Source of the DNA: Centroberyx gerrardi
Taxonomy: Eukaryota > Chordata > Actinopteri > Beryciformes > Berycidae
Reading direction: 5' to 3'
Length of the DNA stretch: 64,000 bases
Assembly: GCF_048128805.1 (NCBI RefSeq)
Contig: NC_136002.1
Location: 30,641,837 to 30,705,836 of the forward strand
The first letter of the stretch is position 1. The number at the start of each line of letters is the position of its first letter. A model generated the notes under the pieces. The model had not been told where the DNA came from and searched no databases. It worked only from the letters and a program-made list of their open reading frames with translations. Positions 20,776-54,658 of the stretch are shown here, piece after piece. The position numbers and the translations under genes were made by a program.

Positions 20776-20939
20776 ATACTTACCTGGCAGGGGAGACACC
20801 ATGATCATGAAGGTGGTTCACCCAGGGCGAGGCTCAGCCATTGCACACCGGTTGTGCTGACCCCTGCGAATTCCTCAAATGTGGGAATCTCGACTGCATA
20901 ATTTCTGGTGGTGGGGGACTGCGTTCGCGCTCTCCCCTG
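20776..20939 (+). ncRNA. U1 snRNA gene, copy A (full length, variant)
   Basis: 164 nt, the standard length. The 5' end ATACTTACCTG pairs with 5' splice sites, and loop I GATCATGAAGG, the Sm site AATTTCTGG and the final stem CGTTCGCGC are present. It differs from the cleaner copy at 49305 in the U1A-binding loop (ATTGCACACC instead of ATTGCACTCC), in stem III (TTCCTC for TTCCCC) and at GGTGGTGGGG. A 3'-box-like GTTCAAAGAAAA follows at 20947-20958. It may be transcribed, but the loop II change makes it a possible variant or early pseudogene. Confidence 0.88.
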
Positions 20940-21221: not shown

Positions 21222-21308
21222 TGTGCTGACCCCTGCGAATTCCCCAAATGTGGGAATCTCGACTGCATAATTTCTGGTAGTGGGGGACTGCGTTCGCGCT
21301 CTCCCCTG
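21222..21308 (+). pseudogene. U1 snRNA 5'-truncated copy B
   Basis: 87 nt matching U1 from about nucleotide 78 to the 3' end (TGTGCTGACCCCTGCGAATT onward), nearly perfect. It has no 5' half and no promoter block: it is joined directly to spacer sequence (ATCTTGACTCC) that elsewhere follows a U1 gene. A 3'-box-like GTTCAAAGAGAA follows. It looks like a product of unequal exchange within the tandem array. Confidence 0.85.
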
Positions 21309-23310: not shown

Positions 23311-23405
23311 ATACTTACCTGGCAGGGGAGACACCATGATCATGAAGGTGGTTCACCCAGGGCGAGGCTCAGCCATTGCACTCCGGTTGTGCTGACCCCT
23401 GCGAA
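23311..23405 (+). pseudogene. U1 snRNA copy C, 5' half (split gene)
   Basis: First 95 nt of U1, ending at CCCCTGCGAA. The remaining 69 nt resume at 44618 after the transposon pair, and 95 + 69 = 164 nt, so no U1 base is lost. The sequence equals that of the intact copy D, including ATTGCACTCC in loop II. The last seven bases (CTGCGAA, 23399-23405) are one copy of the target duplication. Confidence 0.95.
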
Positions 23406-23998
23406 TGGGAGTGGGCCATACCGTAGTGCAATTGTCTTGATCGTAATTGGTCTAAAGTTTACAGTACTTAAACTGAGTTGTGGCTCCCCCAAGTGGTCAA
23501 ACGAAATACTGAGCACACTTCATTTAGGGCCCTGATGAGGTGGGCCCTGATGAGGTGAACCCAGAAGAAAGCCATTATCCCTTACTATCTTATCTCTTAT
23601 CACTTATCTCTTATTATTCAATGTGTTAGTATATAATGTACCACTATTTACTGTGAGCACAAATGTCATTTTGTGTGTCACAATGACTTCTTTCATCATT
23701 TTTTGTGATGTGTGGTGTCACCCTACTAAAAGGAAAACTGCAGTGGGTGTAACAATATAGATGCAGCCTGACAGTTCCATCATTTTCCACAAACGTGATG
23801 TCTGACTTAGTTTCATTTCAGAAATATATCAAATAATTCAAGACACTGCCAATATAGTAAGGACAGAATCTTCCAGCAGAGGCATTCATACACCATAATA
23901 CATCAGATCTGTAATCAGAAAACTGCACATTGGTCACCAGCTGCGATACGTGTCCCTTTATGCCTATAGATCTTTAAGATTTTCTTTGTATATGATTA

Positions 23999-24074
23999 CA
24001 GGGGAGAGCGCGAACGCAGTCCCCCACTACCAGAAATGATGCAGTCGAGATTCCCACATTTGGGGAATTCGCAG
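23999..24074 (-). pseudogene. Inverted U1 3' half captured inside unit 1
   Basis: On the minus strand this reads CTGCGAATTCCCCAAATGTG through to the U1 3' end CTCTCCCCTG: 76 nt with one visible mismatch (GCATCATTT for GCATAATTT). It begins exactly at the target duplication and is abutted (24075 onward) by GAGTCTACAGGAGACTACAG, which resembles the inward-read right terminus. It is therefore an inverted copy of a transposon/U1 junction. Confidence 0.9.
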
Positions 24075-25053
24075 GAGTCTACAGGAGACTACAGGAGGAG
24101 TCTACAATACAGCTCACCCCCATTCAAAGCAAATGTTGCAGAGACTGTTGAAATCAACTATGTATTCCATATGTGTGATATTGGCCATTTCAGATTTAAA
24201 TCAGCTATTTATTGTGATACCTCTTGAAGCCATTGAAGAATGCTGCTATAACAACACAATCTCAAGTGTATTTGTATAAGCAAATGCTACATAATTCATG
24301 TCATTTATTCACGTTACTGGACTGATGTTTTTCAATGAAATACAGCTTATTTTATCAAAAGTATACTTGTGTGAGAATGCTTTTGTCTTTTCCTAAATGC
24401 CATTTATTTACATTTGTCACTTCTATCTTTATGAATTCCCTTATGACTATTGGGAGGCTGATTAAAAGTAGTTTAATATTTCTGAGGCTGATTAAAGCTA
24501 CTTTAATGTTTCTATTGCTATATGTGCAAAATTATCTGATATCGTTGTACTATAGGCACATGTCCTTACATGCAAGTAATCTCTATGTGTCCCTATTTTT
24601 TGATAAACAAATATACCCCCATTGTTGCATTCATTAATTGATATTCCACAACTCACTGTTACTGTAGCACTGACCACTTTATTGAATAAAGTGCATGAAA
24701 TGGGGAACACTTAGAAAAAAAAACACAGCACTACAGTGTAGACAATAAAGTATCATTGAACCTGATTAAGAATTAAATGTCATAAAAATGAAGACTATTT
24801 AAAATATGTACATGAATATGTACATGAAAATGAAAACTATTTACAATTTGTCCAATGAGATACAATTATTTACAGATAAAGAATCTTTCCACCAGATCAC
24901 CTTACTGAATAAATTGCTGACAACACCACAGCACTACAGTTTAGACAATTTAAAAGGTATCACTGAACATGATTAAGAATGAAATGCAATAAAAATGAAG
25001 ACTATTTACAATATGTACAATGCAACCGTACCATATTTACAGATATTTACAGC
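24075..25053 (-). other. 3' flank of the transposase gene, unit 1
   Basis: AT-rich sequence after the transposase stop codon. A minus-strand AATAAA (TTTATT at 24678-24683) can serve as polyadenylation signal. It includes imperfect direct repeats of about 200 bp (GCACTACAGTGTAGACAATA near 24728 and GCACTACAGTTTAGACAATT near 24931). No gene. Confidence 0.5.
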
Positions 25054-28000
25054 TCATTCCTCCAACTTGTCGACAACAGAGGTGAAGTGTTCATAGCTGC
25101 CGTACACTCTGTTGCACAGACCTTTTGATGTGGACATCATTTTTACAGGGCAGAAAGTCTTTTTTTTGTATTTTTTATGTCCTTGGGTTGGTTGGCCACA
25201 GAGTGTACAGACAGGGAGATTTTGCATCCGCGACAGTTTGCCTCCTACTTCTGAGGGGTGTTCCTTCACCTTACGCTTGTATTGCGTAGCTCTCGCCCAG
25301 AATGAAGGACTGCCAATACTGTGTGATGTCTGAGTAGCGGGCATTATGGGCAGAGTTGGAGGGACTGATGTAGGTGGGCCAGCAATCCCAGGGGTTGCCT
25401 GACTGGCAGGCATTATGGGCCGTGTGGAGGGGCCAGCAATCCCAGGGGTTGCCTGCCTGGCAGGCATTATGGGCCGTGTGGAGGGGCCAGCAATCTCAGG
25501 GGTTGCCTGCCTGGCAGGCATTATGGGCCGTGTGGAGGGGCCAGCAATCTCAGGGGTTGCTGTAGATGCAGAGAGGGAGGGCACAGGTCTGGTGATGGTA
25601 GAGGTGGCAGGGGTTTTTCTCACTGGCGGTGGCAGTAGCACAGGTGGCAGTGGTGGTTGAAGCCGGGAGAGTGGCATGATTATGCCTGTCCTTCCCTTTA
25701 ACTCCTTTGTCCCTGCCGTGCTGGGTGTGGGCACATATTCCATCAGGGGGTAGTCTGGTGGAGGGAGGACTGCTGGCTGGTGTGGTGCTGGAGGTAGGTC
25801 TGCAGATGAGATGGAGGTGGTCTTTGTGATGGTGGATGGCTGTTTGGTGGCGTGCATGTTGAGGAGCCTCTCTTGGTGACGGATGAAGTCCCGCACAGTC
25901 TTGATGTTAATTTTTGGTAGAGGAATGCCTGCTTTGCACAGGACTGGATCCTCCACCAAAATCCGGTGCTGGATTCGCTCGTACGCCTTCAAGATGGTGC
26001 TCTTCTCAGGACTGCTGCGAGACCCTTGAGGTGAGCGCAACCACAGCAGTTTCACCAGTGTGTACATCAGCCTGTTGTGCTGAGCACTGATGTCCTGTTG
26101 TGCTGGTGCATAGCGCTTGGCCATCTTTACCCTCTGTATCACAGCAGCATCAACAAGATCATCCCTTTTTGTGCGGCAGTAGAGGGTGTTGCCCCAGTGT
26201 GTTCTGTACAGCTGGTTGAACTGCTGCGGCTGCTTGTCATGCTCCTCCACTGCATTCCAGACTTCGAGGACCTTGTTCCTCTGCTCAGTGGTGAGTGACA
26301 GCTTGTCCTCTGTCAGGCCAATCTCCACCAGCACAGAGCAGAACATTTCCAACTTGTGAAAGCCAGGAAGAGGGTTTGGACTGCAGGCATCCTCCTGTTA
26401 AAAAAAATGCCATACGAATGCGGTAAGTTTAAATGTGTACATTATCCAGCAACCAGTGCATTGTATTTCATTCTAGCAGACACACAGTTACTCACAAAGG
26501 CCGGAGGGTGAACAGTGGAGGTTTCGTCGCTGGTGAGCGTAATGTGGGGCAGGACGGCATCCAGCACATCGTCATGTGCCTCCACGTCGCTCTGGTACGC
26601 CTCATCTGCCTCTGGATCGGGCTGCCCAGGCTGAACCACCTCCTCCTCTGGACCAGGTCCATCGTTGACAATGTCCTGAAGACAGAAGGGTCCAGATTCA
26701 CCTGTGCTCTGGCTGAACAGGTACTCCAACCCCAGCAGCTCGTTGGAAGGGACATCAGCAGGAGCCCGGAAATTCTCCTCCACAGTCTCTCCGAACAGCT
26801 GCCGACAGCGGGTGTTGAGGCGGTCAATCAGCGGCGCCGAGTAGGTCCTGTGGTGCCGTCCTTTGCCACCAAACACGGCATCCGAGCTCCTGTCTGAGTT
26901 CCACCGTGCAATGCCACTTATCAGGTAAACCTGATAGGGCCGTGCTGCACAGTGGGGACCTGAGTAGAGTAGAGTAGAGTTTTAATGTCCCCGAGAGGCA
27001 ATTTGGCTTGCAAACAGCAGTAGTAGAAATGGTATCCATACAATATATACATACAATATAGACATACATACACACATAAACACAAGTACACAGTTAGCGC
27101 CAACATCACTGTTGTCGTTTGTCACTTGTCACCAGAACCATCAGAAGAGGCAGCAAGAATGAAAGAAAGATGGGGGGCACCGTATCACATCCACAGATAG
27201 TCACAGTCCCAATTTGTTTAAAAAACCAATGTGTGTCACCTCTAGGGTGGTAAAACCTCCGCCTTGAGGGGAGCAAATTAAACTCACTGTGTAAAGAACA
27301 CTGCGATCATCTGCTGCTGGTTTATTGGAGGTTCCCAGCAACAGCCGAAAGAAAATCGGGGATGCAGCCTTTGTCAATTACACCCCAAAGCTATGGAACA
27401 CATTACCTTTAGATATCAGGGAAGCCAGCTCGCTAAATATTTTTAAAAGAACGCTAAAAACTTATCTCTTCACTTTAGCCTTTAACTAGCTATGACTTTC
27501 CTGATACAGGCCTGAAACTCTTTTTTGCACTTTGCTTCACACTTATGCACTGATGCACTTCTTTTAAAATGTTGTATTTTACTTGATTTTATGCATTCTA
27601 TGTACTCTATTTTTTTACTTTTTTATTATTATTATTCAGTGGGTTTTATTTTCCATCTTATTTTCCATTAATTATGGCATTCTATCCCTGTTTGTTTATG
27701 CTCATTCTATGTCTATTTTCATGTGAAGATGCATTCTATGTATTCTATTCTCATCTTTATCTTATTTTTACTATTATTATCAAGTTTTATGTGAAGCACT
27801 TGGGGCATGTAATTTCTTTGTTGTAAAGCACTTTGAGCTGCATTTCTTGTATGAAAGGTGCTATACAAATAAAGTTTATTATTATTATTATTATTATTAT
27901 TATATTAAAGGGTGCTGGGAGTCCAATAAGATGACCTGAGCTTTCTGCGAGGCTCTGACTTGGTGCAGGTGGCAAAGATCATTTAAATTTACACCAGTAA

Positions 28001-31000
28001 CTTTACGGCACACATTCACAATTTTTCCCAGCAACATCACAATAAAAGGTATTAGAATAATGACAGGGTCACATGTTTAATCTGTTACAAGTATACAGAC
28101 TACACTTGTGTACCTGGAATCATGTGCGGCAGAGCTTTGTGGAATCCTTCCAGGCTGTTGCTTCCACGCAGGCATTTGTAGTAGGGCACGTCCACATTGT
28201 TGATGGTTGTGGTACGTGCCACCCTATACATGTTCATGTCTGGTGGATCCTGGATGCACTCCAGGTGTCGCTGCTGGCCTGCCCACATCTCATCAATGGC
28301 CTCTGTAAATACACATACATACATACATACATACAGTGTGTTAGGTTCACTTTGTACGCTACACTATCCGTATCGATGTTGTAATAACTTTTTTGTATGA
28401 GGTCTTTTATACCAGGTGTTTTGAAGAGGCTCACTCCACTCTCGTCCAGCCCAGCGGGACCTTTCAGCTCCTCGATGGCCTGGTGGATGAGCCGGAATGT
28501 TTCCTGAGCCCCGAGTGGGACCCTCCGCACATGGTGTTTCAGCTGCTCCCTGGAAATGTAGTGGCGGACAACATCCTCATCTGAGACAGACTTCAGCGTT
28601 GCCAGGTCCTTGGCTCTGACGGCCTTGATGAGCAGCTCCAGGTCTGTGCGGTTGTAGGCCAGCACTGCCCCAGCTAGAGCAGACTTGAACACAGCGTACT
28701 TGGAGTGAGAATCTGTGCGTATGGCTGCGTCAAACCGGTGGATCCAGTGGAAGATGTCCAGACGCACAACCATCCCATTGTCCACCCAAGGCTGGAACAA
28801 AGTCTCCAACGCTGTTGGGCCCTGCGCACGGCAACACCCACGGTCCACATACAAGATTTTGGGGACAGGTTGATTGGCCAGCCGGAACCTTTCCATGACT
28901 CCACGGCACATCGGTTCCAGCTTCTTAGTGGACTCCTCACAGGTCAGCACAAATGAAACTATTTGGGAGTGCTCGTTTCCGATGCTGGTGAACCACTCAG
29001 CTGAGCCTTGACCCTCCCCGGACAGCTTCTTCACCACCTAAAAAATATGTCAAGTTTGCATAATGTGATAACCTCTGTTAGATTCTATTCATATGTGATT
29101 TTTCTTAATCATTTTACAACAGTGTGAAAATTTGTTCAATTTAAAACTGAATAAAAACAAAACAATACTGCAATATGTTTTGCACCATACAGTATGGCAT
29201 TATGTTTTGATTTACATACTTTCTTGGTGGAATCCATTTTCAGCACAGTGCCAAAAGTGGAGAGGATCTGGCTCCGGTAATCCTGCACATTGTTGGCCTC
29301 TGCCAGCAGGAAGGCGTGGCGCAAGAGCCGCGCAGAGGGAAGCTCTCTTGGAGGAGGTGGAGCCTGGAATGTGTGTCTGAATGCAGAGACAATCCCTCCG
29401 GGTTCCGCTACAGTCATGAGGAGTGTGGTGTACAGGTCCTTACGTTGAAGGTACTCCTCAACGTGATTCTCCTGTATCTGCCGCCACACCTTGACCATAG
29501 TGTTCCCTTCGGTCCGGTCCCTCAGAAGGCGCACAACATTCCTATCCACACCACGCCTGTAAGTAGAGTCACAATCAATATGTTGAGGTTGATTTGAGTG
29601 GCTACTTTCAAGTTTGTTAAATGCACACATTATGTTCAGTATACTCACTTGCTGGTGAGGATGGCAGGGAACATAGCTTGATGAGCCTCGCTAAGTTGTG
29701 ATAATATAGCGGGATCCCACGCAAGCCACCGACCCATTGTGCCACCTTCTCCGCTCCTGGCTGCCTTGAGGCACTGTCCACAGCACAGGACCTCCGTCAG
29801 CATGGCATACCAACCGGATACATCACAGATGTGACGTACCTGTGGGGAAAAAATCAAATCAAATAAAGGCCAATAGCAGCATATGATGTTTACATACATA
29901 GTAATAAATATTCAACTGTAATGTAATAACTCTAACACAGGTGAAGTGAGTTATACCCGGTGGTGGTAGCCAGACTTGTAGAGGTGCACATTCCGTCCTC
30001 TACCCACACACTCGTCACCTCGAGGACACTTCAGGGAGTACCTCCACACTCCAACAGGGCGCCACACAAAGACGCGGCTCCGAAAAAAGAGCTGTGGAGT
30101 TGGCAGAGCACCCCTGACATAGCCGGGAGGTTCTGGTGGGTAAAACCACATGCGGTCTGATTTCATCACCCGTCGCCTCTTGAACAGACCAGTGTTGTCC
30201 TTGTAGATTTGAACGGGGGTGAACAGCCCTCTTTCTGTGTCCTCTTTGAGCCAGGAAATGTCGGCAGATGGGATGCCATTGGGGTTTTCCCACGGACGCA
30301 CCCAACCCTCTAGCTCCACCTGCAAAACACATAACACATACAAAACATTTGGTTATTATTGTGTACAAAGTAATGTTAAAACATAAAACCAATTTAAAAA
30401 ACATGTAAAACAAATTGTTCTCATTTACATTGTTTGCATATAATGTGAATATCACTTACAGGGGAGTCACTCAGAGGTGATTCCACGGGATAATCATGAC
30501 CCTTGGTTGTGGACGGGGACTCTGTGGGCTGGCTAGTGGACACATGCTGCTTGGGCCGGACAGCAGCCTCGGGCTGTTTAGGCCGGACAGCGGCCTCGGG
30601 CTGTTTAGGCCGGACAGCGGCCTCGGGCTGTTTAGGCCGGACAGCGGCCTCGGGCTGTTTAGGCCGGACAGCGGCCTCGGGCTGTTTTGGCCGGACAGCG
30701 GCCTCGGGCTGTTTTGGCCGGACAGCGGCCTCAGGCTGCTTGGTCTTGTCTGTGGGCCGGGAACCCTGGGACTGGGAATCCAGAGACTGACTGCTAGTCT
30801 CGCCCATAAATGGGGACTCGTGGGACTTGAGCGAGTCTAAGAATTTACCAAACAAAGTAGTTTTGTATTATGAATTATTTTTTTTAAAAACAGTTTGATG
30901 TCTATTAACTCACTAAGTATCTCACTTACCTTCCACAGCCTGGCTTGCAGCTAACAGTTCACTGTCATCACCTGGCCATGATGAAGGATCACACTTGGAG

Positions 31001-32070
31001 GTGCTTGCCTGCGGTTGCTGGACAAAAAATGTAATGTAACTATCTAGATTTTATGACGTACCAGTTTTTAATTACCAAAAGCAAACAAACACTTTTAGCC
31101 GCAGTGCTTAAAATATCAGTAATTTGAACAATTTTCATTTCAGCTCTTCCTGTTTCATAACAAATAAATAATCAAATCAATATTTACTTGATCCTTGTCA
31201 TGAATATATTTCCTGAACCTCTTCATCTGCACGCTTGTGATGTGGGTCACTGGTGTGTTCAACCACCTCCTCACAGAACTGTTTGCCTTCTTTATTATCT
31301 CCCTCTGCTCATCACTGAACTGCTCTGGCCTGTCCTTTTGGGTGTGGTACTGGCTGTAGAGTTCCCACATCTCCTGAAAGGTGTGATCCTCAAACCCTCT
31401 CTGACCGTAGATACACCTGTCGATGTTGGCTTCAAGGAGACTGGAGACTTGTGGGAAGCTCTCTGCATATTCTGTGAGGTAGTCTTTCACCCACTGGTTC
31501 ACAAGCTCTCCCTTTCTATGTGGGTTTGTCACCTCTGATCTGTGCTTGTCAAGCACGCTGGAATCATATACATCAACTTAGTACCGTCATCATTAATATC
31601 ACTGCAATTGTGATAATGAGTAAAGAAACTTTGCAAAGATGAATAATAAACACCGATAATAGCCATAGTTTTGTGCAAACAGATATACAGGTGATTTATT
31701 TTAAGCATGCCATCAAAATGGTATTTAAAATGCATAGCCTACAATGGTATTAAATATAATATGCTTACTACTTCATGTAGCCCACATCGTTTGCCACAAG
31801 CCAGTGAAATGGTGCATCCTCATACTGGCCAAATGGCACCACCAGCTTTCCCAGGCACAGCTGACGCGACGGCGCGGGGATACCCTCTGCTCGAAGGAGC
31901 TTCTCTGCGTGGGCCAGGGCAGTGGCCTGGTTGAGCAGCTCCTGTGGAGGTTTGGGGAAGACCATCCTTTTATCCCGATAGTAACGGGCCTCTTTGGTCG
32001 CCATCAGTACGGCCTGTTGGCGATTTGCAGGGACATCTGGCTTGACGACGCGGATTACTGGGGTCGCCAT
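25054..32070 (-). CDS. Dada-type transposase, 11 exons, open throughout (unit 1)
   Basis: DDE/RNase-H-fold transposase predicted to cut and join the element at U1. Exons on the minus strand: 32070-31769, 31557-31188, 31017-30930, 30836-30460, 30319-29957, 29839-29649, 29556-29220, 29037-28413, 28302-28114, 26959-26496, 26394-25054. All have GT/AG borders with compatible phases, giving 1548 residues without a stop. The start has a good context (AAGATGG). Features: seven KQPEAAVRP repeats (286-348); a Cys/His cluster (C477, C483, H498/499, H503, C505, C519-C523); catalytic candidates D672 (KMDST), D741 (ILYVDRG) and E936 (SNSLEGF) with D770xxH773 between; four Pro-rich 18-residue repeats; a C-terminal zinc-ribbon-like motif (C1498, C1501, H1508, C1517). 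The C/DxxH motif fits the MuDR/hAT/P/Dada group. Exon calls are by hand. Confidence 0.82.
26963..27110 (-). repeat. LINE/SINE-type 3' tail in transposase intron
   Basis: Read on the minus strand it has the fish retroelement tail pattern GCCTCTCGGGGACATTAAAA followed by an ACTCT repeat. It lies in the intron between the ninth and tenth transposase exons. A copy in unit 2 is at 37569-37716. Confidence 0.4.
27330..27905 (+). mobile_element. LINE 3' end with TTA microsatellite tail, unit 1
   Basis: Reads out of a decayed reverse-transcriptase C-terminal part (AAGCTATGGAACACATTACC) into a 3' end with AAGCACTTTGAGCTGCATTT and CTATACAAATAAAG, then a TTA repeat. This is a very common fish LINE tail (Rex/CR1/L2-like; clade not resolved). 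It sits in the intron between transposase exons nine and ten and is spliced out. Unit 2 copy at 37936-38511. Confidence 0.6.
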
Positions 32071-33816
32071 CTTAAGTTGTAGCTACTGAAATACACTTAG
32101 ATACAGTAACGACACAACAACAGCAGCAACAACAACAACAACAACAATATTATTATTATTATATTATAATAATATATTAATTACTAATATAACAATGAAC
32201 ATTAGTGTACAACAGGTAATTGATACACTTTTAGCACACAGCGAGGAAGAGGAGGAAGTGTCAGAGCAGGGTGACAACTGCTAAACCCTGATTACAGCTC
32301 CTCAGATGAAGATGAAGAGAACTCTGAGGGAGAGTTCTCATAACTCCTTGGCCTACAAGACTGACTCTTTCCCATGCATCTGACATTTTATCCACTTTTC
32401 AACTTTTCTTCCCTTTGCCTAAGTTTTAGGTTTTTGCTTATGGCAAAACTCCAAGAGTGTGCATGCCGTCTTTACACTCAAAATCAGTTGAAATCTTTTG
32501 CCCCAAAAGTTGCCAGTAAAACATCAGGAATATGGAACTCTTATTATGGATTATGGAATATCAACTTCAACTTTGTCTGTCCCCGAGGGGAAATTTGTCT
32601 TGCAGCCAGATAAAACCTAGAACACACAGAGACATAGGCACACGGACTCAGGTACAAAAAATATGATAAAATACATGAATACATCAAGTGACAACAGGAA
32701 ACCTAGAGTATGTTTAGCCATCGCTAAAACCATCATCAGCCCCCAGTAGTTAAATGGGAAACTAATCATCAGCTGGGTCATCATGAGCATTTAACAGTTT
32801 GGTGGCCTGAGGAACAAAAGAATTATTCAACCTGTTATACCTGGCCTTTGGTAGTCTAAATCTCCTTCAGGAGGGTAGGAGCTCAAATTCTCCATACAGA
32901 GGATGAAGAGGACACTATGGAACTCTATTCCTTGGAATAATAAGACTTCCATATTCCATATACCCCTATACCATATTCCATATACCCCTATACCATGTTT
33001 CATATACCCCTGCCATAGCCATAGCCTGGGAGGCAGCGCTGCCTTACAGATAACATTGGAGGCAAAAAACACACTGAGAGAAATCATTGTAGTTGTTATA
33101 TTCTCCTGTCTTGGATAATATAGGCCATGGCAGTTTTTTGACAGCAGGGAAAAATGATTAAAAAAAAACCGAATGGTGTAAAATCTAAAAAATACAGTCT
33201 CCCTGACCTCTGAAACATTGAATAAGAGTCTATTTATTAATGAGTGATGGGTTGTTTTTGGATGCAAAATAGATTTGGAGTTCAAGATTTGGTATGGTAA
33301 CGTAACGTTATAGGTCAAGGTAAACTTTATTATCCCAGATAGGGAAATTCGGGTGGTCAAGGTGCAGAAGTAGGCCTACATATAGAGATTAATAACAAGG
33401 CAACGTCGTTGTAACGTTAGCTATAACGTTACCTAAAACCGCCAAATTTACCGGTGCATGTAACGTTAGCCTCTGCATTATTTTACTGTATTAAGGCAAT
33501 GTTTTAATGTCTGTGTGGCATCCATGAATCTCTTTCTTTTGTCCATATTGACTTTAAACGCGCGAAATTAATTTCGCGAAAATAACCATATTCTATAGTG
33601 GGTCAATTTTATCCGCTGGCGATTATGGGTATAAATGCCCATTTAAAAAAAAAACTGGTTTTATCTTTACTGTTATTTAACAATAGGGGATGCTACATAA
33701 CACAATTTTAGGAAACGTCAAAGACTGGGGTACTACCTGTGACTCCGGAGTTTTGCTGTAGTTTTGCTGCTAGCTAGCTAAATTCAGATTTGCATATCGT
33801 CGACGTGTGATTGGTA
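32071..33816. other. 5' flank of the transposase gene with nested repeats, unit 1
   Basis: Should hold the transposase promoter (minus strand). It contains a CAA/TTA microsatellite (32110-32170); a short + frame starting MNISVQQVIDTLLAHSEEEE (32197) that resembles the acidic N-terminus of piggyBac-like proteins but soon stops; a LINE 3' end (32572-32885); a second L2-like tail near 33315-33360; and AACGTTA-rich sequence. No intact gene on the + strand. Confidence 0.45.
32572..32885 (-). mobile_element. LINE 3' terminal fragment, unit 1
   Basis: On the minus strand it encodes the end of a fish LINE reverse-transcriptase frame (pattern PSGGRF-like, RLPKARYNRLNNSFVPQ, ATKLLNAH) and then a TTTCCCCTCGGGGACA tail. 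5'-truncated. Copy in unit 2 at 43178-43491. Confidence 0.55.
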
Positions 33817-33979
33817 GTCTACAGTGTCTACAGTCGAGACATGTGATTGGTAGTCTACAGTGTCTACAGTCGAGACATGTGATTGGTAGTCTACAGTCGA
33901 ATCCTACGATCCAATAGGGAGTCTACAGTCAAAGTCTACAGTGACTTAGACCAATCAGAACGCGTAACTGTCTACAGTA
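33817..33979 (+). repeat. Subterminal GTCTACAGT array, unit 1
   Basis: Eight copies of GTCTACAGT in about 165 bp, some inside a longer unit with ATGTGATTGGTA and TCGAGAC. It lies 25-190 bp inside the right end of the element. The same motif family (GAGTCTAC, GACTACAG) occurs at 24075-24110 beside the captured U1 fragment. The arrangement is what one expects of transposase-binding subterminal repeats; this role is inference. Confidence 0.75.
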
Positions 33980-34604
33980 GTTTGCACTACCGTAGACTCG
34001 TTCCCTGCGAATGGGAGTGGGCCATACCGTAGTGCAATTGTCTTGATCGTAATTGGTCTAAAGTTTACAGTACTTAAACTGAGTTGTGGCTCCCCCAAGT
34101 GGTCAAACGAAATACTGAGCACACTTCATTTAGGGCCCTGATGAGGTGGGCCCTGATGAGGTGAACCCAGAAGAAAGCCATTATCCCTTACTATCTTATC
34201 TCTTATCACTTATCTCTTATTATTCAATGTGTTAGTATATAATGTACCACTATTTACTGTGAGCACAAATGTCATTTTGTGTGTCACAATGACTTCTTTC
34301 ATCATTTTTTGTGATGTGTGGTGTCACCCTACTAAAAGGAAAACTGCAGTGGGTGTAACAATATAGATGCAGCCTGACAGTTCCATCATTTTCCACAAAC
34401 GTGATGTCTGACTTAGTTTCATTTCAGAAATATATCAAATAATTCAAGACACTGCCAATATAGTAAGGACAGAATCTTCCAGCAGAGGCATTCATACACC
34501 ATAATACATCAGATCTGTAATCAGAAAACTGCACATTGGTCACCAGCTGCGATACGTGTCCCTTTATGCCTATAGATCTTTAAGATTTTCTTTGTATATG
34601 ATTA

Positions 34605-34680
34605 CAGGGGAGAGCGCGAACGCAGTCCCCCACTACCAGAAATGATGCAGTCGAGATTCCCACATTTGGGGAATTCGCAG
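34605..34680 (-). pseudogene. Inverted U1 3' half captured inside unit 2
   Basis: Identical to the fragment at 23999-24074: the U1 3' half from the target site CTGCGAA to the RNA 3' end, reversed relative to the host U1 gene. Confidence 0.9.
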
Positions 34681-35659
34681 GAGTCTACAGGAGACTACAG
34701 GAGGAGTCTACAATACAGCTCACCCCCATTCAAAGCAAATGTTGCAGAGACTGTTGAAATCAACTATGTATTCCATATGTGTGATATTGGCCATTTCAGA
34801 TTTAAATCAGCTATTTATTGTGATACCTCTTGAAGCCATTGAAGAATGCTGCTATAACAACACAATCTCAAGTGTATTTGTATAAGCAAATGCTACATAA
34901 TTCATGTCATTTATTCACGTTACTGGACTGATGTTTTTCAATGAAATACAGCTTATTTTATCAAAAGTATACTTGTGTGAGAATGCTTTTGTCTTTTCCT
35001 AAATGCCATTTATTTACATTTGTCACTTCTATCTTTATGAATTCCCTTATGACTATTGGGAGGCTGATTAAAAGTAGTTTAATATTTCTGAGGCTGATTA
35101 AAGCTACTTTAATGTTTCTATTGCTATATGTGCAAAATTATCTGATATCGTTGTACTATAGGCACATGTCCTTACATGCAAGTAATCTCTATGTGTCCCT
35201 ATTTTTTGATAAACAAATATACCCCCATTGTTGCATTCATTAATTGATATTCCACAACTCACTGTTACTGTAGCACTGACCACTTTATTGAATAAAGTGC
35301 ATGAAATGGGGAACACTTAGAAAAAAAAACACAGCACTACAGTGTAGACAATAAAGTATCATTGAACCTGATTAAGAATTAAATGTCATAAAAATGAAGA
35401 CTATTTAAAATATGTACATGAATATGTACATGAAAATGAAAACTATTTACAATTTGTCCAATGAGATACAATTATTTACAGATAAAGAATCTTTCCACCA
35501 GATCACCTTACTGAATAAATTGCTGACAACACCACAGCACTACAGTTTAGACAATTTAAAAGGTATCACTGAACATGATTAAGAATGAAATGCAATAAAA
35601 ATGAAGACTATTTACAATATGTACAATGCAACCGTACCATATTTACAGATATTTACAGC

Positions 35660-38600
35660 TCATTCCTCCAACTTGTCGACAACAGAGGTGAAGTGTTCAT
35701 AGCTGCCGTACACTCTGTTGCACAGACCTTTTGATGTGGACATCATTTTTACAGGGCAGAAAGTCTTTTTTTTGTATTTTTTATGTCCTTGGGTTGGTTG
35801 GCCACAGAGTGTACAGACAGGGAGATTTTGCATCCGCGACAGTTTGCCTCCTACTTCTGAGGGGTGTTCCTTCACCTTACGCTTGTATTGCGTAGCTCTC
35901 GCCCAGAATGAAGGACTGCCAATACTGTGTGATGTCTGAGTAGCGGGCATTATGGGCAGAGTTGGAGGGACTGATGTAGGTGGGCCAGCAATCCCAGGGG
36001 TTGCCTGACTGGCAGGCATTATGGGCCGTGTGGAGGGGCCAGCAATCCCAGGGGTTGCCTGCCTGGCAGGCATTATGGGCCGTGTGGAGGGGCCAGCAAT
36101 CTCAGGGGTTGCCTGCCTGGCAGGCATTATGGGCCGTGTGGAGGGGCCAGCAATCTCAGGGGTTGCTGTAGATGCAGAGAGGGAGGGCACAGGTCTGGTG
36201 ATGGTAGAGGTGGCAGGGGTTTTTCTCACTGGCGGTGGCAGTAGCACAGGTGGCAGTGGTGGTTGAAGCCGGGAGAGTGGCATGATTATGCCTGTCCTTC
36301 CCTTTAACTCCTTTGTCCCTGCCGTGCTGGGTGTGGGCACATATTCCATCAGGGGGTAGTCTGGTGGAGGGAGGACTGCTGGCTGGTGTGGTGCTGGAGG
36401 TAGGTCTGCAGATGAGATGGAGGTGGTCTTTGTGATGGTGGATGGCTGTTTGGTGGCGTGCATGTTGAGGAGCCTCTCTTGGTGACGGATGAAGTCCCGC
36501 ACAGTCTTGATGTTAATTTTTGGTAGAGGAATGCCTGCTTTGCACAGGACTGGATCCTCCACCAAAATCCGGTGCTGGATTCGCTCGTACGCCTTCAAGA
36601 TGGTGCTCTTCTCAGGACTGCTGCGAGACCCTTGAGGTGAGCGCAACCACAGCAGTTTCACCAGTGTGTACATCAGCCTGTTGTGCTGAGCACTGATGTC
36701 CTGTTGTGCTGGTGCATAGCGCTTGGCCATCTTTACCCTCTGTATCACAGCAGCATCAACAAGATCATCCCTTTTTGTGCGGCAGTAGAGGGTGTTGCCC
36801 CAGTGTGTTCTGTACAGCTGGTTGAACTGCTGCGGCTGCTTGTCATGCTCCTCCACTGCATTCCAGACTTCGAGGACCTTGTTCCTCTGCTCAGTGGTGA
36901 GTGACAGCTTGTCCTCTGTCAGGCCAATCTCCACCAGCACAGAGCAGAACATTTCCAACTTGTGAAAGCCAGGAAGAGGGTTTGGACTGCAGGCATCCTC
37001 CTGTTAAAAAAAATGCCATACGAATGCGGTAAGTTTAAATGTGTACATTATCCAGCAACCAGTGCATTGTATTTCATTCTAGCAGACACACAGTTACTCA
37101 CAAAGGCCGGAGGGTGAACAGTGGAGGTTTCGTCGCTGGTGAGCGTAATGTGGGGCAGGACGGCATCCAGCACATCGTCATGTGCCTCCACGTCGCTCTG
37201 GTACGCCTCATCTGCCTCTGGATCGGGCTGCCCAGGCTGAACCACCTCCTCCTCTGGACCAGGTCCATCGTTGACAATGTCCTGAAGACAGAAGGGTCCA
37301 GATTCACCTGTGCTCTGGCTGAACAGGTACTCCAACCCCAGCAGCTCGTTGGAAGGGACATCAGCAGGAGCCCGGAAATTCTCCTCCACAGTCTCTCCGA
37401 ACAGCTGCCGACAGCGGGTGTTGAGGCGGTCAATCAGCGGCGCCGAGTAGGTCCTGTGGTGCCGTCCTTTGCCACCAAACACGGCATCCGAGCTCCTGTC
37501 TGAGTTCCACCGTGCAATGCCACTTATCAGGTAAACCTGATAGGGCCGTGCTGCACAGTGGGGACCTGAGTAGAGTAGAGTAGAGTTTTAATGTCCCCGA
37601 GAGGCAATTTGGCTTGCAAACAGCAGTAGTAGAAATGGTATCCATACAATATATACATACAATATAGACATACATACACACATAAACACAAGTACACAGT
37701 TAGCGCCAACATCACTGTTGTCGTTTGTCACTTGTCACCAGAACCATCAGAAGAGGCAGCAAGAATGAAAGAAAGATGGGGGGCACCGTATCACATCCAC
37801 AGATAGTCACAGTCCCAATTTGTTTAAAAAACCAATGTGTGTCACCTCTAGGGTGGTAAAACCTCCGCCTTGAGGGGAGCAAATTAAACTCACTGTGTAA
37901 AGAACACTGCGATCATCTGCTGCTGGTTTATTGGAGGTTCCCAGCAACAGCCGAAAGAAAATCGGGGATGCAGCCTTTGTCAATTACACCCCAAAGCTAT
38001 GGAACACATTACCTTTAGATATCAGGGAAGCCAGCTCGCTAAATATTTTTAAAAGAACGCTAAAAACTTATCTCTTCACTTTAGCCTTTAACTAGCTATG
38101 ACTTTCCTGATACAGGCCTGAAACTCTTTTTTGCACTTTGCTTCACACTTATGCACTGATGCACTTCTTTTAAAATGTTGTATTTTACTTGATTTTATGC
38201 ATTCTATGTACTCTATTTTTTTACTTTTTTATTATTATTATTCAGTGGGTTTTATTTTCCATCTTATTTTCCATTAATTATGGCATTCTATCCCTGTTTG
38301 TTTATGCTCATTCTATGTCTATTTTCATGTGAAGATGCATTCTATGTATTCTATTCTCATCTTTATCTTATTTTTACTATTATTATCAAGTTTTATGTGA
38401 AGCACTTGGGGCATGTAATTTCTTTGTTGTAAAGCACTTTGAGCTGCATTTCTTGTATGAAAGGTGCTATACAAATAAAGTTTATTATTATTATTATTAT
38501 TATTATTATATTAAAGGGTGCTGGGAGTCCAATAAGATGACCTGAGCTTTCTGCGAGGCTCTGACTTGGTGCAGGTGGCAAAGATCATTTAAATTTACAC

Positions 38601-41600
38601 CAGTAACTTTACGGCACACATTCACAATTTTTCCCAGCAACATCACAATAAAAGGTATTAGAATAATGACAGGGTCACATGTTTAATCTGTTACAAGTAT
38701 ACAGACTACACTTGTGTACCTGGAATCATGTGCGGCAGAGCTTTGTGGAATCCTTCCAGGCTGTTGCTTCCACGCAGGCATTTGTAGTAGGGCACGTCCA
38801 CATTGTTGATGGTTGTGGTACGTGCCACCCTATACATGTTCATGTCTGGTGGATCCTGGATGCACTCCAGGTGTCGCTGCTGGCCTGCCCACATCTCATC
38901 AATGGCCTCTGTAAATACACATACATACATACATACATACAGTGTGTTAGGTTCACTTTGTACGCTACACTATCCGTATCGATGTTGTAATAACTTTTTT
39001 GTATGAGGTCTTTTATACCAGGTGTTTTGAAGAGGCTCACTCCACTCTCGTCCAGCCCAGCGGGACCTTTCAGCTCCTCGATGGCCTGGTGGATGAGCCG
39101 GAATGTTTCCTGAGCCCCGAGTGGGACCCTCCGCACATGGTGTTTCAGCTGCTCCCTGGAAATGTAGTGGCGGACAACATCCTCATCTGAGACAGACTTC
39201 AGCGTTGCCAGGTCCTTGGCTCTGACGGCCTTGATGAGCAGCTCCAGGTCTGTGCGGTTGTAGGCCAGCACTGCCCCAGCTAGAGCAGACTTGAACACAG
39301 CGTACTTGGAGTGAGAATCTGTGCGTATGGCTGCGTCAAACCGGTGGATCCAGTGGAAGATGTCCAGACGCACAACCATCCCATTGTCCACCCAAGGCTG
39401 GAACAAAGTCTCCAACGCTGTTGGGCCCTGCGCACGGCAACACCCACGGTCCACATACAAGATTTTGGGGACAGGTTGATTGGCCAGCCGGAACCTTTCC
39501 ATGACTCCACGGCACATCGGTTCCAGCTTCTTAGTGGACTCCTCACAGGTCAGCACAAATGAAACTATTTGGGAGTGCTCGTTTCCGATGCTGGTGAACC
39601 ACTCAGCTGAGCCTTGACCCTCCCCGGACAGCTTCTTCACCACCTAAAAAATATGTCAAGTTTGCATAATGTGATAACCTCTGTTAGATTCTATTCATAT
39701 GTGATTTTTCTTAATCATTTTACAACAGTGTGAAAATTTGTTCAATTTAAAACTGAATAAAAACAAAACAATACTGCAATATGTTTTGCACCATACAGTA
39801 TGGCATTATGTTTTGATTTACATACTTTCTTGGTGGAATCCATTTTCAGCACAGTGCCAAAAGTGGAGAGGATCTGGCTCCGGTAATCCTGCACATTGTT
39901 GGCCTCTGCCAGCAGGAAGGCGTGGCGCAAGAGCCGCGCAGAGGGAAGCTCTCTTGGAGGAGGTGGAGCCTGGAATGTGTGTCTGAATGCAGAGACAATC
40001 CCTCCGGGTTCCGCTACAGTCATGAGGAGTGTGGTGTACAGGTCCTTACGTTGAAGGTACTCCTCAACGTGATTCTCCTGTATCTGCCGCCACACCTTGA
40101 CCATAGTGTTCCCTTCGGTCCGGTCCCTCAGAAGGCGCACAACATTCCTATCCACACCACGCCTGTAAGTAGAGTCACAATCAATATGTTGAGGTTGATT
40201 TGAGTGGCTACTTTCAAGTTTGTTAAATGCACACATTATGTTCAGTATACTCACTTGCTGGTGAGGATGGCAGGGAACATAGCTTGATGAGCCTCGCTAA
40301 GTTGTGATAATATAGCGGGATCCCACGCAAGCCACCGACCCATTGTGCCACCTTCTCCGCTCCTGGCTGCCTTGAGGCACTGTCCACAGCACAGGACCTC
40401 CGTCAGCATGGCATACCAACCGGATACATCACAGATGTGACGTACCTGTGGGGAAAAAATCAAATCAAATAAAGGCCAATAGCAGCATATGATGTTTACA
40501 TACATAGTAATAAATATTCAACTGTAATGTAATAACTCTAACACAGGTGAAGTGAGTTATACCCGGTGGTGGTAGCCAGACTTGTAGAGGTGCACATTCC
40601 GTCCTCTACCCACACACTCGTCACCTCGAGGACACTTCAGGGAGTACCTCCACACTCCAACAGGGCGCCACACAAAGACGCGGCTCCGAAAAAAGAGCTG
40701 TGGAGTTGGCAGAGCACCCCTGACATAGCCGGGAGGTTCTGGTGGGTAAAACCACATGCGGTCTGATTTCATCACCCGTCGCCTCTTGAACAGACCAGTG
40801 TTGTCCTTGTAGATTTGAACGGGGGTGAACAGCCCTCTTTCTGTGTCCTCTTTGAGCCAGGAAATGTCGGCAGATGGGATGCCATTGGGGTTTTCCCACG
40901 GACGCACCCAACCCTCTAGCTCCACCTGCAAAACACATAACACATACAAAACATTTGGTTATTATTGTGTACAAAGTAATGTTAAAACATAAAACCAATT
41001 TAAAAAACATGTAAAACAAATTGTTCTCATTTACATTGTTTGCATATAATGTGAATATCACTTACAGGGGAGTCACTCAGAGGTGATTCCACGGGATAAT
41101 CATGACCCTTGGTTGTGGACGGGGACTCTGTGGGCTGGCTAGTGGACACATGCTGCTTGGGCCGGACAGCAGCCTCGGGCTGTTTAGGCCGGACAGCGGC
41201 CTCGGGCTGTTTAGGCCGGACAGCGGCCTCGGGCTGTTTAGGCCGGACAGCGGCCTCGGGCTGTTTAGGCCGGACAGCGGCCTCGGGCTGTTTTGGCCGG
41301 ACAGCGGCCTCGGGCTGTTTTGGCCGGACAGCGGCCTCAGGCTGCTTGGTCTTGTCTGTGGGCCGGGAACCCTGGGACTGGGAATCCAGAGACTGACTGC
41401 TAGTCTCGCCCATAAATGGGGACTCGTGGGACTTGAGCGAGTCTAAGAATTTACCAAACAAAGTAGTTTTGTATTATGAATTATTTTTTTTAAAAACAGT
41501 TTGATGTCTATTAACTCACTAAGTATCTCACTTACCTTCCACAGCCTGGCTTGCAGCTAACAGTTCACTGTCATCACCTGGCCATGATGAAGGATCACAC

Positions 41601-42676
41601 TTGGAGGTGCTTGCCTGCGGTTGCTGGACAAAAAATGTAATGTAACTATCTAGATTTTATGACGTACCAGTTTTTAATTACCAAAAGCAAACAAACACTT
41701 TTAGCCGCAGTGCTTAAAATATCAGTAATTTGAACAATTTTCATTTCAGCTCTTCCTGTTTCATAACAAATAAATAATCAAATCAATATTTACTTGATCC
41801 TTGTCATGAATATATTTCCTGAACCTCTTCATCTGCACGCTTGTGATGTGGGTCACTGGTGTGTTCAACCACCTCCTCACAGAACTGTTTGCCTTCTTTA
41901 TTATCTCCCTCTGCTCATCACTGAACTGCTCTGGCCTGTCCTTTTGGGTGTGGTACTGGCTGTAGAGTTCCCACATCTCCTGAAAGGTGTGATCCTCAAA
42001 CCCTCTCTGACCGTAGATACACCTGTCGATGTTGGCTTCAAGGAGACTGGAGACTTGTGGGAAGCTCTCTGCATATTCTGTGAGGTAGTCTTTCACCCAC
42101 TGGTTCACAAGCTCTCCCTTTCTATGTGGGTTTGTCACCTCTGATCTGTGCTTGTCAAGCACGCTGGAATCATATACATCAACTTAGTACCGTCATCATT
42201 AATATCACTGCAATTGTGATAATGAGTAAAGAAACTTTGCAAAGATGAATAATAAACACCGATAATAGCCATAGTTTTGTGCAAACAGATATACAGGTGA
42301 TTTATTTTAAGCATGCCATCAAAATGGTATTTAAAATGCATAGCCTACAATGGTATTAAATATAATATGCTTACTACTTCATGTAGCCCACATCGTTTGC
42401 CACAAGCCAGTGAAATGGTGCATCCTCATACTGGCCAAATGGCACCACCAGCTTTCCCAGGCACAGCTGACGCGACGGCGCGGGGATACCCTCTGCTCGA
42501 AGGAGCTTCTCTGCGTGGGCCAGGGCAGTGGCCTGGTTGAGCAGCTCCTGTGGAGGTTTGGGGAAGACCATCCTTTTATCCCGATAGTAACGGGCCTCTT
42601 TGGTCGCCATCAGTACGGCCTGTTGGCGATTTGCAGGGACATCTGGCTTGACGACGCGGATTACTGGGGTCGCCAT
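35660..42676 (-). CDS. Dada-type transposase, 11 exons, open throughout (unit 2)
   Basis: Second copy of the transposase gene, apparently identical to that in unit 1. Exons on the minus strand: 42676-42375, 42163-41794, 41623-41536, 41442-41066, 40925-40563, 40445-40255, 40162-39826, 39643-39019, 38908-38720, 37565-37102, 37000-35660. The same 1548-codon frame, the same DDE and DxxH residues, the same KQPEAAVRP repeats (seven copies) and C-terminal zinc-ribbon-like motif. Having two open copies argues that the family is young or still active, if the duplication is real. Confidence 0.8.
37936..38511 (+). mobile_element. LINE 3' end with TTA tail, unit 2
   Basis: Copy of the 27330-27905 LINE tail inside the intron between transposase exons nine and ten of unit 2. 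It is carried as part of the duplicated unit rather than inserted separately. Confidence 0.6.
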
Positions 42677-43177
42677 CTTAAGTTGTAGCTACTGAAATAC
42701 ACTTAGATACAGTAACGACACAACAACAGCAGCAACAACAACAACAACAACAATATTATTATTATTATATTATAATAATATATTAATTACTAATATAACA
42801 ATGAACATTAGTGTACAACAGGTAATTGATACACTTTTAGCACACAGCGAGGAAGAGGAGGAAGTGTCAGAGCAGGGTGACAACTGCTAAACCCTGATTA
42901 CAGCTCCTCAGATGAAGATGAAGAGAACTCTGAGGGAGAGTTCTCATAACTCCTTGGCCTACAAGACTGACTCTTTCCCATGCATCTGACATTTTATCCA
43001 CTTTTCAACTTTTCTTCCCTTTGCCTAAGTTTTAGGTTTTTGCTTATGGCAAAACTCCAAGAGTGTGCATGCCGTCTTTACACTCAAAATCAGTTGAAAT
43101 CTTTTGCCCCAAAAGTTGCCAGTAAAACATCAGGAATATGGAACTCTTATTATGGATTATGGAATATCAACTTCAAC

Positions 43178-43491
43178 TTTGTCTGTCCCCGAGGGGAAAT
43201 TTGTCTTGCAGCCAGATAAAACCTAGAACACACAGAGACATAGGCACACGGACTCAGGTACAAAAAATATGATAAAATACATGAATACATCAAGTGACAA
43301 CAGGAAACCTAGAGTATGTTTAGCCATCGCTAAAACCATCATCAGCCCCCAGTAGTTAAATGGGAAACTAATCATCAGCTGGGTCATCATGAGCATTTAA
43401 CAGTTTGGTGGCCTGAGGAACAAAAGAATTATTCAACCTGTTATACCTGGCCTTTGGTAGTCTAAATCTCCTTCAGGAGGGTAGGAGCTCA
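43178..43491 (-). mobile_element. LINE 3' terminal fragment, unit 2
   Basis: Copy of the 32572-32885 fragment, carried inside unit 2. Confidence 0.55.
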
Positions 43492-44422
43492 AATTCTCCA
43501 TACAGAGGATGAAGAGGACACTATGGAACTCTATTCCTTGGAATAATAAGACTTCCATATTCCATATACCCCTATACCATATTCCATATACCCCTATACC
43601 ATGTTTCATATACCCCTGCCATAGCCATAGCCTGGGAGGCAGCGCTGCCTTACAGATAACATTGGAGGCAAAAAACACACTGAGAGAAATCATTGTAGTT
43701 GTTATATTCTCCTGTCTTGGATAATATAGGCCATGGCAGTTTTTTGACAGCAGGGAAAAATGATTAAAAAAAAACCGAATGGTGTAAAATCTAAAAAATA
43801 CAGTCTCCCTGACCTCTGAAACATTGAATAAGAGTCTATTTATTAATGAGTGATGGGTTGTTTTTGGATGCAAAATAGATTTGGAGTTCAAGATTTGGTA
43901 TGGTAACGTAACGTTATAGGTCAAGGTAAACTTTATTATCCCAGATAGGGAAATTCGGGTGGTCAAGGTGCAGAAGTAGGCCTACATATAGAGATTAATA
44001 ACAAGGCAACGTCGTTGTAACGTTAGCTATAACGTTACCTAAAACCGCCAAATTTACCGGTGCATGTAACGTTAGCCTCTGCATTATTTTACTGTATTAA
44101 GGCAATGTTTTAATGTCTGTGTGGCATCCATGAATCTCTTTCTTTTGTCCATATTGACTTTAAACGCGCGAAATTAATTTCGCGAAAATAACCATATTCT
44201 ATAGTGGGTCAATTTTATCCGCTGGCGATTATGGGTATAAATGCCCATTTAAAAAAAAAACTGGTTTTATCTTTACTGTTATTTAACAATAGGGGATGCT
44301 ACATAACACAATTTTAGGAAACGTCAAAGACTGGGGTACTACCTGTGACTCCGGAGTTTTGCTGTAGTTTTGCTGCTAGCTAGCTAAATTCAGATTTGCA
44401 TATCGTCGACGTGTGATTGGTA

Positions 44423-44585
44423 GTCTACAGTGTCTACAGTCGAGACATGTGATTGGTAGTCTACAGTGTCTACAGTCGAGACATGTGATTGGTAGTCTAC
44501 AGTCGAATCCTACGATCCAATAGGGAGTCTACAGTCAAAGTCTACAGTGACTTAGACCAATCAGAACGCGTAACTGTCTACAGTA
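44423..44585 (+). repeat. Subterminal GTCTACAGT array, unit 2
   Basis: Copy of 33817-33979: eight GTCTACAGT motifs just inside the right end of unit 2, about 25 bp from the U1 junction. Confidence 0.75.
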
Positions 44586-44617
44586 GTTTGCACTACCGTA
44601 GACTCGTTCCCTGCGAA

Positions 44618-44686
44618 TTCCCCAAATGTGGGAATCTCGACTGCATAATTTCTGGTAGTGGGGGACTGCGTTCGCGCTCTCCCCTG
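44618..44686 (+). pseudogene. U1 snRNA copy C, 3' half (split gene)
   Basis: The last 69 nt of U1, following the target duplication CTGCGAA at 44611-44617, with intact Sm site and terminal stem. A 3'-box-like GTTCAAAGAAAA follows at 44694-44705. With 23311-23405 it makes one complete 164-nt U1 interrupted by the transposon pair. Confidence 0.95.
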
Positions 44687-49304: not shown

Positions 49305-49468
49305 ATACTTACCTGGCAGGGGAGACACCATGATCATGAAGGTGGTTCACCCAGGGCGAGGCTCAGCCATTGCACTCCGGTTGTGCTGACCCCTGCGAAT
49401 TCCCCAAATGTGGGAATCTCGACTGCATAATTTCTGGTAGTGGGGGACTGCGTTCGCGCTCTCCCCTG
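49305..49468 (+). ncRNA. U1 snRNA gene, copy D (intact)
   Basis: 164 nt with every functional segment intact: ATACTTACCTG 5' end, loop I GATCATGAAGG (U1-70K), loop II ATTGCACTCC (U1A), Sm site AATTTCTGG and final stem-loop. A conserved promoter block precedes it and a 3'-box-like GTTCAAAGAAAA follows at 49476-49487. It is the best candidate for a working U1 gene in this window and still carries an unoccupied CTGCGAA target. Confidence 0.93.
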
Positions 49469-49683: not shown

Positions 49684-50267
49684 TGGTGGTGAACTGTGAT
49701 CATCAGAGGGTGTACAGTCACCAATGGGTAAAACATGGAATTGAGTTTATCAGAAATCAACAAGATATGATAGGCTTGACTGTAGAGTGAAATTAGATGT
49801 GAAACAGCATTCAGTTAATGTGAAACGGTTCTGGTATTCAGACCTCATCTTATAGGTATTGTAGAAGTGATAGTGTCCCTTGACATCTGTAGCAGCACTG
49901 ACGCCAGTCTATCCTCCAGTCAGCTGCTGGTTTGATAATTTGGAGTTTGAAAAAGTTTGTTGCATTGGCCGGGAATCGAACCCGGGCCTCCCGCGTGGCA
50001 GGCGAGAATTCTACCACTGAACCACCAATGCAAGTTCTGTGGGTGAAATGGACCCTCACAGGCTGACTGACAGGCAACTGACATGTTTCAAGTGGGGTCC
50101 AGGTGTAACCTCAAGAGATGTGTCTTCAGTCTCCGGTGCTTCTCGGCGTTTTGGCTAAACTTTAAGTGAAGGTCTCACGCGATCACGACGGCGACATCGG
50201 CTACTAAGCACTACTACTAAGTCGGCTGTGTCTGGACTGAAGAATACGCTGCGTTTTTCTTTTTCAG
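49684..50267. repeat. tRNA/U2-ORF1 cassette, unit 1 (partial)
   Basis: First, shortened copy of the cassette: CTGTGATCATCAGAGGGTG block, tRNA-Gly on the minus strand, then a short U2-like/ORF1 relic ending near 50268. It lacks a tRNA-Leu of its own and most of the ORF1 part. Confidence 0.75.
49961..50031 (-). tRNA. tRNA-Gly (GCC), copy 1
   Basis: 71 nt on the minus strand: GCATTGGTGGTTCAGTGGTA start, anticodon GCC in CTCGCCTGCCACGCGGGAG, B box GGTTCGATTCC and a closing acceptor CCAATGC. Folds as a standard cloverleaf. Confidence 0.95.
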
Positions 50268-50268
50268 T
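50138..50268 (+). pseudogene. U2 5' fragment fused to LINE ORF1 relic, unit 1
   Basis: GCTTCTCGGCGTTTTGGCTA (50138 onward) matches U2 from nucleotide 4 with one mismatch. It is followed by TTTAAGTGAAGGTCTC and the first part of the ORF1-like sequence seen in units 2-4. Truncated by an internal deletion. Confidence 0.7.
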
Positions 50269-50346
50269 TTGAGACTACTTAGACAGTGGGCTTCATTAAT
50301 GTTACTGACTGCCGCTTTAAGTCTGTCTGATAGTCAGGCACATGAA

Positions 50347-50429
50347 GTCAGGATGGCCGAGCGGTCTAAGGCGCTGCGTTCAGGTCGCAGTCTCCCCTGG
50401 AGGCGTGGGTTCGAATCCCACTTCTGACA
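50347..50429 (+). tRNA. tRNA-Leu (CAG), copy 1
   Basis: 83 nt: GTCAGGATGGCCGAGCGGTC start, anticodon CAG in TGCGTTCAGGTCGCA, long variable arm (TCTCCCCTGGAGGCG) typical of leucine tRNAs, and B box GGTTCGAATCC. A T-rich stretch follows. Confidence 0.95.
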
Positions 50430-50756
50430 GCAACAGTTTTGCACTGGATCTGTGTGATGTGTAGCTGTGGGAAATGATACGGTGGTAAACTGTGATCATC
50501 AGAGGGTGAACAGTCACCAATGGGTAAAACATGGAATTGAGTTCATCAGAAATCTACAAGATATAGTGGACTTGACTGTAGAGTGTTATTAGATGTGAAA
50601 CAGCATTCAGTTGTGTGAAAACGGTTCTGGTATTCAGACCTCATCTTATAGGTATTGTAGATGTGACAGTTTCCCTTGACATCTGTAGCAGCACTGACGC
50701 CAGTCTATCCTCCAGTCGACTCCTGGTTTGATCATCTGGAGATTGAAAAAGTTTAT

Positions 50757-50827
50757 TGCATTGGCCGGGAATCGAACCCGGGCCTCCCGCGTGGCAGGCG
50801 AGAATTCTACCACTGAACCACCAATGC
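50757..50827 (-). tRNA. tRNA-Gly (GCC), copy 2
   Basis: Identical in all key parts to copy 1; 71 nt on the minus strand, facing tRNA-Leu copy 1 about 330 bp away. Confidence 0.95.
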
Positions 50828-50933
50828 AAGTTCTGTGGGTGAACTGGACCCTCACAGGCTGACTGACAGGCAACTGACATGTTTCAAGTGGGGTCCAGGT
50901 GTAACCTGAAGAGATGTGTCTTCAGTCTCCGAT

Positions 50934-54628: not shown

Positions 54629-54658
54629 TTAAGTCTGTCTGATAGTCAGGCACGTGAA

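Follow-up and report, generated by a model that had tools for sequence, protein, structure and literature searches.

A head-to-tail pair of identical Dada-U1 transposons within a single U1 gene of Centroberyx gerrardi

The transposase of Dada elements has been described as a DDE enzyme that carries a DxxH motif together with an N-terminal CCCC and a C-terminal CCHC zinc finger (Kojima and Jurka 2013, PMC3706591). For insertions into U1 genes, the same work favours a 6-bp target duplication, GCGAAT, while still allowing one of 8 bp. It also points out that U1 carries ATTGCAC at the same distance, and considers that the corresponding repeats of Dada-U6 might contribute to target recognition. In a later study, binding was inferred to occur mainly downstream of insertion sites (Kojima 2022, PMC8869645). 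We take 'downstream' to mean the U1 5′ side because the U1 target is written there as its complement.

Tandem Dada-U1 elements are already on record from zebrafish. On chromosome 12, two different Dada-U1 families are separated by GCGAAT, and the legend to Fig. S3 of the same paper reports two U1A copies on chromosome 3 with no additional nucleotides between them (PMC3706591). The initial annotation of the DNA examined here knew of no described tandem chain, and these Dada-U1A/U1B tandems, published in 2013, overturn that statement. Comparable arrangements are found among other mobile elements. In Drosophila, site preference during active periods gives rise to tandem dimers (McGurk and Barbash 2018, as summarised in PMC7214746), and double insertion at one site is one of three routes proposed for their origin (PMC7214746). 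Casposons, which occupy a tRNA gene, can stand head to tail with nothing but the duplicated target between them, and Tn7 islands likewise occur in tandem at a single site; rebuilding of the target after each insertion is stated for the related CRISPR case (PMC9939771).

Layout of the tandem and its surroundings

The window, by which we mean the entire stretch of 64,000 nucleotides that was analysed (C6:30641837-30705836), comes from an assembly of 778.9 Mb in 278 contigs, which was also searched. Within it, two head-to-tail units of 10,599 bp split one U1 snRNA gene and differ from each other by 0 mismatches. Nucleotides 1-95 of the gene, assigned by Rfam and sequence comparison, occupy positions 23311-23405 of the forward strand and end with the target word CTGCGAA (23399-23405). 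Unit 1 follows at 23406-34004, then a forward-strand CTGCGAA common to both units (34005-34011), unit 2 (34012-44610), the third copy of the target word (44611-44617), and finally the 69-nt 3′ part of the U1 gene (44618-44686), the last two likewise on the forward strand. The units do not differ at any position, internal repeat arrays included. Identical 10.6-kb units at exact target copies rule out a chance origin of this layout.

The order U1, CTGCGAA, unit, CTGCGAA, unit, CTGCGAA, U1 had been proposed in the initial annotation, and it holds to the base. The same is true of the statement that U1 loses nothing. Specifically, the 95-nt and 69-nt parts, once rejoined, match letter for letter the intact 164-nt U1 gene at 49305-49468 (forward strand), the element ends are exact at the target copies, and no host sequence is lost. 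The target duplication needs a more careful wording. CTGCGAA is indeed present three times, as had been noted, but all three junctions have ten letters in common, CCCTGCGAAT, and a duplication of 7 bp is consequently only one of the possible readings.

The intact gene at 49305-49468 lies in a paralogous stretch that serves as an empty-site control, because the rejoined host flanks of the tandem align with that stretch at 97.7% identity over 1,794 aligned positions, unbroken across the insertion point. Rfam matches to U1 in the window are located at 20776-20939 (intact, forward strand), 23311-23467 and 49305-49468, and a U2 gene and tRNA genes were also matched. The broken gene at 23311-23467 scores 82.4 bits compared to a cut-off of 69.5. 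In the 264 kb around the locus, which include 18,589 letters N, no further match to the unit exceeds 118 bp, and complete U1 genes are absent apart from the two intact genes and the split one. The matches to the unit that fall at U1 genes in this region correspond to the unit's own U1 fragment, which is described below.

Several additional small-RNA sequences are found nearby. A loose U1 fragment (nucleotides 78-164, 100% identical, without the 5′ part) is located at 21222-21308, between the first two U1 genes, and a weaker fragment of 81% identity begins at 20039. Seven clustered tRNA matches in repeated units adjoin the U1 genes at 49961-55148.

The element, its transposase and its relatives

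By its target, its transposase motifs and its sub-terminal repeats, the unit fits a Dada-U1 element. The earlier description of a Dada-type element that targets U1, with a single target copy common to the two units, is thus backed by site, motifs and junctions. The insertion lies in U1 at the CTGCGAAT site and is accompanied by a short target duplication, as is that of another copy at C23:4500889. The sub-terminal repeats are GTGCAAT at the left end and TTTGCAC at the right end (6/7), and both are in register with ATTGCAC of U1. Terminal inverted repeats are absent: the tips agree at a few letters at most, and the agreement sits in the sub-terminal repeat.

Open blocks on the minus strand can be joined through GT/AG introns into a model of 1,530 amino acids without an internal stop. 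This predicted transposase gene has ten exons and spans 25054-32070 in unit 1. Exons 1-5 are at 31769-32070, 31188-31557, 30460-30825, 29957-30319 and 29649-29839, and exons 6-10 are at 29220-29556, 28351-29037, 28114-28300, 26496-26944 and 25054-26394. The identical model in unit 2 occupies 35660-42676, also on the minus strand, at an offset of 10,606. The splice joins were picked by hand from lists of GT/AG sites; those between exons 2 and 3 and between exons 7 and 8 use weak splice sites, and for exon 9 an alternative acceptor is possible. Both transposase genes had been called open in the initial annotation. A stop-free spliced model can be drawn, which agrees with that description, but two of its joins are weak and the two identical copies amount to one observation.

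The model carries MDSTKK at residue 638, VDRGC at 707, LDIFHW at 736 and NSLEGFH at 920, with DxxH present after the second D. The DDE residues and DxxH were placed by eye from the order and pattern given in PMC3706591 rather than by alignment to the dataset of that paper. The zinc fingers are represented by C444, C450, C487 and C490 (N-terminal CCCC) and by C1480, C1483, H1490 and C1499 (C-terminal CCHC). Some of the gaps between these residues differ by 1 to 3 residues from those of Dada-U6_DR (PMC3706591).

Among the eight ORFs scanned against Pfam, DUF6729 was the sole family above the cut-off, in two of them, and a PDB search with one ORF gave nothing below E = 0.09. Residues 380-1080 were used as the query, and scoring was confined to the 7,999 candidates with most words in common; this gave 46 homologs, 35 of which have fish names. 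The best of these, from Esox, Sebastes and Pygocentrus, are 87-89% identical. The matches listed are labelled uncharacterized, hypothetical, unnamed or DUF6729, and none among them is named Dada. A tree of 22 chosen homologs (of the 46) and the window core gives the window element no firm placement. In this same tree, distant fish groups are intermixed. On the basis of the protein core, the 87-89% identity across fish and the mixed tree could reflect either horizontal transfer or the persistence of many old lineages.

A search of the assembly with a 67-base left-end query, in which all five candidates were scored, revealed at least five left ends, and all counts from it are lower bounds. They belong to the two window units, to the copy at C23:4500889 (100%) and to two diverged copies (94% and 93%). 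There is no second tandem and no mixed tandem among these ends. At C23:4500889, one full-length copy stands alone in a U1 gene of an array (C23:4496000-4515999; units of ~850-870 bp), inserted at the same target word; it is the third full-length Dada copy. BLAST aligns it with the window unit over 10,707 positions at 98.87% identity (13 mismatches, 9 gap openings); global alignment of the same pair yields 2 substitutions and two 54-bp insertions in the repeat arrays. The sole substitution within the coding model is silent. Judging from these comparisons, the Dada-U1 element is young and has moved recently, its single copy on contig C23 being only 2 substitutions away. The two diverged copies are disrupted by stops, gaps and rearrangement, and U1 is missing from the left end of one.

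Unit position 8288 is G in both window units and A in all three other copies, and therefore the window pair share a derived base. At unit position 3385, it is the C23:4500889 copy that deviates (1/3). These sequences suggest that one window unit probably derives from its neighbour, or else that the two descend from a donor missing from the assembly.

Each unit also contains an inverted U1 3′ fragment followed by right-end-like letters. In unit 1 this fragment of the U1 3′ half lies on the minus strand at 23999-24079 and begins at the target word; its equivalent in unit 2 is at 34605-34685. It may be the relic of an older rearrangement or a nested insertion, captured by the Dada-U1 family. A broken relative is present in a U1 gene from C23:16243110 onward (about 4911-7098 of locus L008), where a forward left end is followed by an inverted U1 3′ half that is joined directly to a right end, also inverted.

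Likeness between the U1 target and the element ends

The right end of the element resembles the U1 5′ side at equal spacing: TTGCAC is present in each, and 19 nucleotides after GCAC the target begins. Read toward the target, the two are identical at 16 of 26 positions, among them TTGCACT and CCCT, which are in register. This score was reached by 20,000 shuffles in a fraction of 5e-05 and, on recount, 2e-04, with the length of 26 positions having been chosen after looking at the sequences. The agreement fades with length, from 16/30 (8.5e-04) and 17/40 (0.010) to 20/60 (0.08, not significant). When the same comparison is made with windows of the unit on its two strands, 16/26 is reached by 1 and 2 of 10,573 windows, 16/30 by 9 and 6 of 10,569, and 17/40 by 128 and 104 of 10,559. 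Against the complement of the left end, the U1 5′ side agrees at 18/26 positions (0 of 20,000 shuffles) and at 26/60 (7e-04 of shuffles).

The U1 3′ side shows nothing comparable. It agrees with the right end at 4/26 and 14/60 positions and with the left end at 1/26 and 13/60, which is chance or less. It had been suggested that the transposase reads mainly the 3′ half of U1. This proposal is unsupported, since both element ends are similar to the U1 5′ side and neither is similar to the 3′ side, which speaks against a reading of the 3′ half. The binding inferred in PMC8869645, on our reading of its orientation, likewise points to the 5′ side. The resemblance might mark what the transposase reads, and it strengthens the 2013 proposal of a role in recognition for repeats common to element ends and target.

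Origin of the tandem and comparison with known systems

The best explanation for this locus, and one somewhat more likely than not, is that a single kind of Dada-U1 DNA transposon inserted here twice in recent time, the second time at a regenerated target. The initial annotation had considered repeat insertion plausible, and we rank it first because a zebrafish tandem of two families exists (PMC3706591) and because the target survives insertion. Entry of the first element into the U1 gene would have produced a target duplication (GCGAAT, 6 bp, if the published interpretation holds). The target would survive this event, with the left junction retaining the entire U1 5′ side and the right junction setting the element's right end beside a target copy. 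The transposase would then insert a second element at the regenerated site, giving unit, target and unit with orientation kept. We infer both this second transposition and the junction that it hit. The donor would most likely be a local copy, for example that on the sister chromatid after replication.

Some observations weigh against repeat insertion. Identical copies from a local source are equally expected from local tandem duplication, and only one tandem locus is present among the at least five left ends in the assembly. Moreover, the U1 5′ side and the right end look less alike the longer the stretch compared, and the internal U1 3′ fragment shows that the Dada-U1 family also rearranges. 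Repeat insertion, duplication between target copies and reintegration of a circle all yield the identical sequence.

A second, considerably less probable origin is duplication in place of one unit and one target copy, in which the short target copies would have served for template switching, slippage or end joining. This is compatible with the 0 differences in 10,599 positions between the units, with the derived base and the repeat-array states that they share and that distinguish them from the contig C23 copy, and with the occurrence of the same 10 nucleotides at all three junctions. However, the homology available to such an event is just 10 nucleotides long, at a distance of 10.6 kb. Furthermore, the chromosome 12 tandem of zebrafish consists of two different families, and duplication of one element therefore cannot make it. 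That tandem needs insertion, of which the Dada-U1 family is thus capable (PMC3706591).

The same product would result if an excised Dada circle carrying one target copy had recombined with the resident copy or integrated beside it. Circularization with rolling-circle copies is a published route to tandem transposons (PMC7214746), but no evidence of a Dada circle was found in the available text of PMC3706591 or PMC8869645, and we regard this origin as improbable.

Slightly more doubtful still is an error in the assembled copy number, such that the animal has one unit or more than two. The absence of any difference over 10.6 kb, beyond the length of many reads, is what such an error could produce. 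Yet the junction of right end, target and left end shares only 10 nucleotides with both flanking U1 sides, and the window contains 0 N. Some real read should therefore have held this junction, and the contig C23 copy was assembled as a single unit. The exact copy number is nevertheless less sure than the junction, as identical 10.6-kb units, two or more, can be miscounted.

As its alternative, the initial annotation offered unequal exchange between occupied U1 copies. We reject such an exchange as the first step, because with the element it would also duplicate a U1 3′ half, a spacer and a U1 5′ half and would not give element, target word and element; a direct join of unit, target and unit by exchange would require a crossover within the 10-nt target copies.

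The resemblance described above permits a further, tentative proposal that we think unlikely as it stands: the right end might be a working copy of the U1 5′ target, in which case each insertion would rebuild the target and chains would grow at one U1 gene. If true, a eukaryotic DNA transposon would possess a self-renewing landing pad of the kind argued for casposons, and other U1 genes would be spared. A preference of new insertions for occupied U1 genes would limit the damage to U1 genes. The locus combines a very young and open-framed tandem with an empty paralogous site at a distance of 4.6 kb, and another contig holds a single copy that is nearly identical. This makes it a good natural case for learning how Dada reads U1 and whether occupied sites remain targets.

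Among known systems, the zebrafish tandems of Dada-U1A_DR and Dada-U1B_DR are similar in their U1 site, CTGCGAAT, in their tandem Dada-U1 units and, on chromosome 12, in the target copy between units (PMC3706591). They differ in that the window pair consists of identical units with the target copy kept, whereas chromosome 12 joins two families and chromosome 3 has no extra nucleotides (PMC3706591). The actinopterygian Dada-U1 families have the same U1 target and a Dada transposase (PMC8869645); in contrast to the window tandem, the main text of that study nowhere uses the words tandem, head-to-tail or nested. The Drosophila dimers involve other elements and hosts, and the window site, unlike theirs, is one fixed position in a small-RNA gene (PMC7214746). 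Casposons and Tn7 islands likewise have head-to-tail elements with target copies alone between them and repeat insertion at one site, although they are prokaryotic and their integrase is unrelated (PMC9939771). In other words, the phenomenon itself is already known, and the window tandem is a clean new example of it, a very recent and identical pair in another genome. To earlier work it contributes a derived base common to the two units and a more complete comparison of both element ends with the U1 5′ side.
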